A stretch of DNA of 64,000 bases from Pseudomonas asgharzadehiana (GTDB lineage: Bacteria > Pseudomonadota > Gammaproteobacteria > Pseudomonadales > Pseudomonadaceae), in assembly GCF_019139815.1 (NCBI RefSeq), contig NZ_CP077079.1:1550001-1614000 (forward strand), in the 5' to 3' direction. Position numbers and translations under genes: made by a program. Below are positions 48,970 through 50,317 of this stretch, one piece after another; within the stretch, counting starts at the first letter, position 1; each line of letters starts with the position of its first letter. The notes under the pieces were generated by a model, which was not told where the DNA came from, ran no database searches, and saw only the letters and a program-made list of their open reading frames with translations.

Positions 48970-48991
48970 CGACGCAACCTGAAAGCTTAAA

Positions 48992-49057
48992 TGTGGGAGC
49001 AACTGTCTTGATGACCCTAACTTTGGCATCGCTTTTTAAGACAGCCAAGCTCCCACA
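48992..49057. repeat. REP-like palindrome after rpoS
   Basis: TGTGGGAGC (48992-49000) and GCTCCCACA (49049-49057) form the outer arms; CTGTCTT/AAGACAG form inner arms. It is 23 bases past the rpoS stop and could end the rpoS mRNA. The right arm touches the predicted IS110 junction. Confidence 0.75.
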
Positions 49058-49098
49058 GCTTCAAGCCGTGTGACCTTCAACCACACATCGCTGCCGAT

Positions 49099-50037
49099 TC
49101 AGGCAGCGTGTTCTTTCCATTCGGCTCTATAACGCAGCATCGCGTTCAGCCTGACTAACAAAACACGCATGCATGCAATTAGCGCAACTTTTGCGCGTTT
49201 GCCTTTGTCGCGCAGTGCTTTATAGCGGGCCTGGAATTCAGGCTGTTCCCGGATGACAACCCAGCAGGCCATGTAGAGCGAGCGACGCACGGAAAACCTT
49301 CCGCCGCTAATGTGACGCGCACCTTGGTGTTTCCCACTGTCGTTGTTATACGGAGCGAGGCCCGCTAGCGCCGTGATCGGACGCCTGCCAATCTCGCCCA
49401 GCTCCGGCAGATATGCCATTAGGCTAGCCGCCGTAATGAGCCCGATGCCCTTAACTGAGCACAGGCGTTCGACCTTTTCGCGGTCTAGCCTGTTGGCGGT
49501 TTCGCGAATCAGCTGCTCTATCGCGTTCACAGCCTTGCTCAAGTAGTCGATATGGCTCTGCAACGCCGGTTTTACTACGTCGCAGGAGGCTGTTTTCAGG
49601 CGCCTTCTGTCATCGTCCCTCTGCTGAACAAAGTTCTCTCGCTGCTGGACTAACGCGCGCAACTCGTCATGTTCCGGGCTGGTGATTCGGCTGCTTGGTG
49701 AGTCGAGAACCGCTGCGAACTGCGCAAGAGACTTTGCGTCTATCGGGTCGGTTTTAGCGTGTTGCCCCATCGCCCTGGAAAAACTCTTGGCCCGACGGGG
49801 ATTGACGCAGATGACATTAAGGCCCGCAGCCTGAAGCGCCTTCATGACTTTGCGCTCATAACCGCCAGTAGCCTCCAACACCACGCGTCCGACCTGGTGA
49901 AGCAATAGCCACCCAATCAACCCAGGGAAATCTTCTTCGGCGTTAGCGCAATTTACCCCAACGTCAACCTGATGAACTCGAGCTTCAAGGCTGTCCTTGG
50001 AAACATCAATGCCTGCTGGATAGGAAAACATAGCCAA
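49099..50037 (-). CDS. IS110-family transposase (DEDD + Tnp_20)
   Basis: 312 residues. The N-terminal RuvC-like DEDD domain shows GIDVSKDSLE (D~10), VVLEATGGYE (E) and KTDPIDAKSLA (two D). The C-terminal transposase_20 domain has GIGLITAASLMAYLPELG, ITALAGLAPYNNDSGKHQG and FSVRRSLYMA, with a candidate catalytic serine in NDSGKHQG. All catalytic motifs are intact and the frame is open, so it may be active. The ~180 non-coding bases upstream of its start are strongly structured, which puts it in the IS110 group and not IS1111. Confidence 0.93.
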   Translation of the reverse strand: MAMFSYPAGIDVSKDSLEARVHQVDVGVNCANAEEDFPGLIGWLLLHQVGRVVLEATGGYERKVMKALQAAGLNVICVNPRRAKSFSRAMGQHAKTDPIDAKSLAQFAAVLDSPSSRITSPEHDELRALVQQRENFVQQRDDDRRRLKTASCDVVKPALQSHIDYLSKAVNAIEQLIRETANRLDREKVERLCSVKGIGLITAASLMAYLPELGEIGRRPITALAGLAPYNNDSGKHQGARHISGGRFSVRRSLYMACWVVIREQPEFQARYKALRDKGKRAKVALIACMRVLLVRLNAMLRYRAEWKEHAA

Positions 50038-50040
50038 ACC

Positions 50041-50212
50041 CTCTTACACTAAAAGTGAGAGCGCTCTGGCTTGGCCCACGCTTGTAACTGTTCGAGGTGG
50101 GCTCGTTCAACTGTTCGGGCTCATGTCCAGAGCGGAGAAGTGAGTGGCAGCATGGGCTCCCACACGTGCTTTAAGCACTTCGGGCATTCAGCTTGCCACT
50201 CACCCTCTCACT
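50041..50212 (-). ncRNA. Candidate IS110 bridge (guide) RNA
   Basis: The non-coding left end of the element folds into two stems. One is GTGAGTGGCA (50140-50149) with TGCCACTCAC (50194-50203), extended by GAGA/TCTC. The other is CGCTCTGG (50062-50069) with CCAGAGCG (50127-50134), holding an inner GGCCCAC/GTGGGC-type stem. Each encloses a large loop, as in known IS110 bridge RNAs with target and donor loops. The first loop contains TGTGGGAGC on the minus strand, identical to the REP core at the junction. Transcription was not shown. Confidence 0.5.
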
Positions 50213-50238
50213 CTCAGCTTAATCCCGTATCAAGACAC

Positions 50239-50317
50239 AAGGGGGCTTGCTCCCGATTGTTGAGTGACAGTCAATGGATGCATTGACTGATTCACCGCTA
50301 TCGGGAGCAAGCCCCCT
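50239..50317. repeat. REP pair (inverted) beside the IS110 element
   Basis: AAGGGGGCTTGCTCCCGAT (50239-50257) and its inverse ATCGGGAGCAAGCCCCCT (50300-50317), 42 bases apart, with an inner AGTCAATG...CATTGACT palindrome. It lies 21 bases outside the predicted IS end. The outer TGTGAGAGG on the right side is not matched on the left. Confidence 0.85.

Follow-up and report, generated by a model that had tools for sequence, protein, structure and literature searches.

The bridge-RNA mechanism is known from elements of the IS110 group, for which IS621 is the prototype (PMC11208160, PMC11208158). PMC11208160 reports IS110 bridge RNAs, guide-target covariation over thousands of elements, REP targeting by IS621 and a promoter at its RE-LE junction, and its Extended Data Fig. 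10 places ISPpu10 among the elements whose loops are matched to their targets. The same principle, including natural re-direction, was described for IS1111 and IS110 types (PMC11187229), and REP targeting by ISPpu9, ISPpu10 and ISPa11 is documented in PMC1525189. In ISPpu9, a stable antisense RNA, Asr9, lies over the leader of the tnp gene, and its promoter reaches the first tnp codons. The sense RNA Ssr9 is the complement of Asr9, and where it occurs as orphan copies, these have the A and B boxes of the element ends on either side (PMC8450116). Ssr9 may be a second, self-moving bridge-RNA unit, which we put forward as an idea only.

We analysed a window (the whole stretch of DNA studied, 64,000 nucleotides) that carries an IS110-group element on the minus strand (Table 1). 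With a probability of roughly 0.93, its leader region encodes an IS110-group bridge RNA that would be made from a junction promoter and carry REP and donor loops, with the recombinase joining the partners at CT. In the proposed reaction, the excised circle would join RE to LE, forming a promoter (TTG of RE, the CT core and T of LE, 17 nt, TAAGCT) from which the bridge RNA would be made. The target loop would pair with the REP and the second loop with the RE-LE donor junction, and the DEDD/Ser recombinase would join the circle and the REP at CT.

Table 1. Observed and predicted features of the element, in window coordinates.
Feature	Position	Strand	Description
IS110-group element	48998-50239	-	1242 bp including one copy of the CT core; LE is the high-coordinate end
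Left CT core	50240-50241	-	left target flank (LT) GCAAGCCCC, 50242-50250
Right CT core	48998-48999	-	right target flank (RT) CCCACAT, 48991-48997
Subterminal inverted repeat, left	50229-50237	-	TGTCTTGAT, from sequence
Subterminal inverted repeat, right	49004-49012		ATCAAGACA, from sequence
IS110 recombinase	49099-50031	-	310 aa from ATG; alternative TTG start at 50037
Putative bridge RNA region	50055-50212	-	match to covariance model R1, 180.7 bits
Predicted target-binding stem-loop	50139-50204	-	outer stem 50195-50204/50139-50148; inner hairpin 50166-50178
Predicted left target guide	50181-50188	-	AAUGCCCG; GCCCG is 50181-50185; G at -1 mismatches C of the host flank
Predicted right target guide	50157-50165	-	GUGUGGGAG; its UGUGGGAG is complementary to CT+CCCACA over the right junction
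Predicted donor-binding stem-loop	50064-50132	-	stem CUCUGG 50127-50132/CCAGAG 50064-50069
Candidate left donor guide	50108-50114	-	ACAGUUG, as the RE end ACAGTTG 49000-49006
Candidate right donor guide	50081-50085	-	ACAAG, complementary to the LE start CTTGT 50237-50241
RE inverted motif	49038-49058	-	CTGTGGGAGCTTGGCTGTCTT; holds the word at 49049-49057

Element ends and insertion site

The genome contains three identical copies of the element, each at a REP. The stretch common to the three copies starts inside a REP and ends in CTCCCACAT, and the outer flanks are unrelated; the right CT core and the flank CCCACAT both lie within the common sequence. A search for relatives in 57 genomes gave 30 right-flank loci, 29 of them from other genomes, and the left flank was also present beside the right one in five relatives. 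In three of these five (L107, L109, and L111), an unbroken REPIN stands at the predicted place and reads AAGCCCCCTCCCACA or AAGCCCGCTCCCACA. L108 has a REPIN with two right-flank bases changed, and L110 lacks a REPIN at the orthologous site. These results show that the true right junction is the CT listed in Table 1 and that the element is inserted in a REP. The original prediction had taken the word at 49049-49057 as the 3′ junction and target flank; the three copies and the intact orthologous sites, which put the junction at CT, place this word about 50 bp inside the element.

The RT was CCCAC in 54 of the 57 copies with both ends parsed, and the constancy of the CT core in relatives is not independent of the method, because the end motifs used to find the copies fix CT by construction. 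The nearest relative in a named record is that of P. palleroniana LMG 23076 (83% protein identity), and a plasmid search returned two weak matches only. The genome of the window element (G000) also holds, at 3854052-3860517, scattered pieces, 94-97% identical (L004, L005, and L006), that look like a decayed relative of it.

Recombinase

The gene product contains the Pfam domains PF01548 (DEDD_Tnp_IS110) and PF02371 (Transposase_20), and it matched the NCBIfam model of IS110 RNA-guided transposases, NF033542, with 211.8 bits against a cut-off of 140. The only solved structures matched were those of ISCro4 (9t56, E=1.6e-31) and IS621 (8wt6, E=6.5e-30). The residues D9, E53, D95, D98, and S232, matched by eye, align with D11, E60, D102, D105, and S241 of IS621, whose catalytic roles are given in PMC11208158. 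The protein has the DEDD RuvC domain and the Tnp domain with a catalytic serine by which the IS110 group is defined. In-frame TGA codons had been flagged in relatives of about 55% identity; in those read (L027-L032), they were normal end codons or stops further downstream, and this candidate was rejected.

Fold and conservation of the leader

The minus-strand stem 50140-50149/50194-50203 of the original prediction is present, with TGTGGGAGC in its loop at 50156-50164. The fold of 50038-50217 has a z score of -5.16, with none of 200 shuffled sequences as stable, and places two stem-loops inside an outer stem. The consensus derived by aligning 20 distinct leaders (A1) resembled the fold of the window sequence. 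We scored the stems alone, leaving out the pairs that RNAalifold draws between the two guides. Of 678 stem cells, 98.8% were paired, and 10 of the 34 pairs had changed on both sides (mean of shuffled alignments, 3.2); neither value was reached in 500 shuffles, and these p-values overstate the significance because related sequences are not independent. The structure tested was derived from the same alignment. When the partner was slid by 1-3 columns, 27-47% of the cells were paired. A lack of covariation in the stems had been named in advance as an outcome that would speak against the prediction; the changes found on both sides fell in the target stem (seven of 13 pairs), the donor stem (two) and the inner donor stem (one), with none in the closing stem among the 20 leaders. 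The count of further pair types, 17, was not above that of the shuffles (18.1).

The covariance model R1 was built from 20 leaders that include the window sequence. It matched 38 of 398 Pseudomonas genomes at E ≤ 0.01 and, in the class-wide search, two of 369 genomes, one being that of the window. Short R1 hits in draft genomes had suggested short forms of the RNA; this was rejected, since most of the hits fetched were contig ends. The copy in G284 and two copies in G391 are genuinely shortened or rearranged. By eye, the leader in L151 (G148), L157 (G284), and L165 (G391) is closely followed by the end of the transposase gene; possibly these short copies are non-autonomous forms that carry a guide, or decayed copies. 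In L153 (G264:C45), two bridge-RNA leaders stand in tandem about 160 bp apart with N between them, an arrangement that may be an assembly effect.

Target guides and insertion flanks

The word TGTGGGAGC occurs three times in the window against 0.77 expected, and three of 100 shuffles reached three occurrences. The places are the RNA loop (50156-50164, minus strand), the inside of RE (49049-49057, minus strand) and the true junction (48992-49000, plus strand). The true right flank, CT+CCCACA at 48992-48999, is the reverse complement of the loop word; the junction word lies on the opposite strand, which is the orientation that base pairing with the right target guide requires. The 9-mer is part of the host REP word TGTGGGAGSGGGCTTGC, present 306 times, so that finding the 9-mer alone near a REP tells little. 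The case for a putative guide is built on the comparative data instead.

The protein search gave matches at E ≤ 1e-60 in at least 25 of 398 genomes, with at most five candidates scored per genome. A selection of 100 stretches from the matches of the protein and R1 searches, together with the window, made up 101 loci, 95 of which yielded 96 copies, from 35 Pseudomonas genomes, whose left end could be read. L148, L156, and L166 were left out for an unreadable left end, and L173-L175 were missed by the motif. At least 8 bases of left flank were available for 93 copies. We took the register of the left guide from the inner hairpin, plus or minus one base, and compared each of 19 guide types with its commonest flank.

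Over the 6 bases left of the core, the left guides gave 95 Watson-Crick matches out of 114, and 20,000 reassignments of guides to flanks averaged 76.6 matches, the highest score being 88. The score was 87 when the register was held fixed (mean 70.2, maximum 84). When each distinct 5-base LT was represented by a single type (nine types) and G-U pairs were allowed, it was 49 of 54 (mean 38.9, maximum 48). As with the stems, relatedness among the sequences makes such shuffles overstate the significance. Examples of guide and flank are AUUCG/AATTCG (G018), AGCGCG/AGCGCG (G126), AGCCAG/GAGCCAG (G331), AACCCG/AACCCG (G264), and GCCCC/GCCCC (G308); G117 (3/6) and G196 (4/6) fit poorly. To judge from these comparisons, the predicted left guide changes with the left target across relatives. 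A bridge RNA in LE with a REP-aimed target loop and the guide TGTGGGAG, as originally predicted, is supported.

The prediction had also named siblings with the same loop at unrelated sites as evidence against it. The siblings stood in REP flanks, as predicted, but one guide can accompany several REP forms: the six G307 copies, with a single guide, have five forms of flank. Of the two G088 copies, one is inserted in CAAGCCAG. The left guide of the window copy and of its two siblings mismatches at -1 (next to the core), -6, and -8, and neither core base is paired; these three of 14 copies lie outside the left-guide test because the commonest flank per type was scored.

In regards to the right guide, 54 of 74 copies paired at 6/6 positions, 19 at 5/6, and one, with a misread right end, at 3/6. 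Its covariation with the target, from five types with a known right flank, gave a p value of about 0.05 and is weak because there is so little variation in the right guide. The unusual right flanks CCTACA (G363) and TCCTAC (G161) are accompanied by the guides GGGUAGGAG and GUUAGGAAG.

Host REP variants

We counted the G form GCAAGCCC-G-CTCCCACA and the C form GCAAGCCC-C-CTCCCACA in 22 element-bearing genomes. Hosts rich in the C form were G000, the window genome (16 G, 290 C), G158 (51, 474), G187 (8, 1056), and G308 (5, 1006). The guide ends in GCCCC in G158, G187, and G308; the elements of these three genomes are close, and the guide change may be a single event. The window element, in its C-form host, has the guide GCCCG, as do its closest relatives, which come from G121 and G174, two hosts in which the G form prevails (193 to 11 and 370 to 52, respectively). 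Among the 93 copies, a guide G against a flank C at the base beside the core occurs only in the three copies of the window genome. A guide C against a flank G was seen in the nominal register in four copies (G391 and G117), which fit better one base over. Other REP forms prevail in G018 (0 G, 5 C) and G161 (0, 0), and the guides there fit their own flanks.

We read the window element as a recent arrival whose guide would not yet be adapted to its host and whose -1 mismatch would be tolerated. Since 290 of the 306 exact sites are of the C form, finding three of three copies in C-form sites is expected without any preference. Among the relatives, bridge-RNA guides and REP variants change in step and so form a natural series, and the three copies with a core-adjacent mismatch to the main host REP make mismatch tolerance and the adaptation of guides to a new host testable.

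Donor guides and circle junction

The candidate donor guides match the element ends over 7 nt (left) and 5 nt (right). The left guide is almost invariant and the right one invariant in A1, and they give no covariation test for this reason. Of 21 distinct RE-LE junctions, 19 read TTGCTT-17-TAnnnT and two (G363 and G018) read TGGCTT-16-TAnnnT. As promoter elements these hexamers are weak: the -10 agrees at 3 to 5 of 6 positions (3/6 in the window), and TTGCTT agrees with TTGACA at 3/6. In the inserted state, the junction TTG is replaced by target bases, and the promoter scan found no promoter-like site in that state.

Inverted motif in the right end

The RE motif repeats, in inverted orientation and with changes, the RE end together with the right target flank, and it forms half a hairpin. 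It was present in 11 of 11 elements (the window and 10 relatives), which come from all 11 genomes of the protein search with at least 68% protein identity. For the eight more distant of these, the mean identity to the window was 0.83 in the motif, 0.98 in the RE end, and 0.56 in the rest of RE. The more distant elements among those listed do not have the motif, and several of them end soon after the gene. After insertion, TGTGGGAG...GCTGTCTT of the element faces its own AAGACAG plus the target CTCCCACA. This hairpin over the right junction arises only after insertion and, folded with the flank, has an energy of -14.9 to -35.8 kcal/mol, the weakest being those of G046 and G158. It is conceivable, if rather doubtful, that RE carries a half palindrome that only the target completes, so that a REP-like hairpin is rebuilt and the bridge RNA picks the target that completes it. 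The rebuilt hairpin may hide the damage done to the REP, or it may terminate and protect transcripts, and any such function is a guess. By eye, the right ends in G288 and G307 (e.g., L095) have a REPIN-like palindrome of their own, as if REP DNA had been captured.

Opposite strand of the leader

The Rfam family RF02234 (sX15) matches the plus strand of the window at 50054-50217 over its full length, with 44.4 bits against a gathering score of 55. An opposite-strand match was obtained in seven of seven other loci (L137, L066, L094, L100, L095, L054, and L102) and exceeded the gathering score in three (L137, 120.2; L066, 61.7; L094, 56.0). In the seven loci scanned, no same-strand match was found at E ≤ 0.001. 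Among 274 genomes of the class, RF02234 occurs in two, that of the window and G430. In G430, the matches to sX15 (120 bits) and R1 (49.5 bits) coincide in position but lie on opposite strands, and the IS110 gene immediately downstream of them is shortened. Because R1 also has weak hits on the opposite strand (29-37 bits, five genomes), we considered that the link might be palindrome noise; this reading was dropped in view of the 120 bits in L137 and the absence of a same-strand RF02234 hit at E ≤ 0.001 in the seven loci. RF02234 is a Xanthomonadaceae sRNA, and IS110 does not appear in the description line shown by Rfam. On the strength of these matches, we take sX15 to be an RNA encoded opposite an IS110 bridge RNA, a reading that would connect this orphan family of Rfam sRNAs with the antisense side of bridge RNAs.

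In 21 of 21 distinct elements, the corresponding antisense position holds a TAnnnT hexamer (plus strand, 50045-50050 in the window), with a best -35 of only 2-4 of 6 positions; the ribosome site and coding put constraints of their own on this region. In the literature covered by titles and abstract openings, with most subscription papers and all preprints outside that set, we found no report of guides that follow REP variants, of a target-completed hairpin or of the sX15 link.

Alternative explanations

The leader might be only a regulatory 5′-UTR with an antisense RNA like that of ISPpu9, with the protein recognising REPs and the loop match being a coincidence. The loop word is a REP word, Asr9 covers the tnp 5′-UTR of ISPpu9 with a promoter that extends into the first codons of tnp (PMC8450116), the RF02234 match lies on the antisense strand, and the antisense hexamer is constant in spite of its poor -35. 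This explanation does not predict, however, that loop bases follow target bases or that a two-loop fold in the IS621 arrangement is conserved. Nor is the accessibility of the ribosome-binding site clearly changed without the 5′ strand: over 23 leaders its mean was 0.45 in full leaders, 0.38 in truncated, and 0.42 in shuffled ones, and we rejected the idea that the closing strand hides the transposase ribosome site. We consider a purely regulatory leader very unlikely; regulation in addition to the guide role may occur. Still less credit goes to the view that the matches of TGTGGGAGC are chance or REP background in a mere IS110 copy beside a REP. The 306 exact genome copies of TGTGGGAGSGGGCTTGC favour it, but within the 64 kb the word occurs at the window element only, related elements keep the same guide register, and variant guides go with variant targets; the shuffles of the left guide already contradict it.

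The element might also belong to the IS1111 group, with its guide RNA in the right end. The repeat TGTCTTGAT/ATCAAGACA is 9 bp long in the window copy and thus within the 7-17 bp range of IS1111 elements (PMC11208160), whereas the criterion of the IS110 group is a repeat of 2-3 bp; in more distant relatives it is about 5 bp by eye (TGTCT/AGACA). Against this assignment, the conserved RNA fold lies in LE and not in a long RE, LE (208 nt) is longer than RE (about 100 nt, and much shorter in some relatives), and the solved structures matched were those of IS621 and ISCro4 only. An IS1111 element is as improbable as the background explanation. An IS110-group bridge RNA in LE is the reading that we prefer.

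Comparison with known systems

The window element resembles IS621 of Escherichia coli in its two-loop LE RNA, REP target, CT core, and DEDD and Ser recombinase (phmmer E=6.5e-30), and its predicted RE-LE junction promoter has a published counterpart there (PMC11208160). It differs from IS621 in its guide and REP sequence, in its longer subterminal repeat, and in a left guide that leaves the core bases unpaired. ISPpu9 is similarly an IS110 element found in REPs, whose tnp leader is long and structured and is covered by a stable antisense RNA; the AG repeat at its ends, its 244-nt tnp 5′-UTR, and the second sense RNA, Ssr9, downstream are its own, and the account of the leader RNA given in PMC8450116 considers no guide role in the parts concerned. 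ISPpu10 of P. putida KT2440 is likewise a REP-targeting IS110 element of Pseudomonas with a predicted bridge RNA. Set beside the window element by description, it may be the nearest named relative, and that the two form one subfamily is a guess. As both the mechanism and REP targeting are published for relatives, the window element is a new example of a known mechanism.
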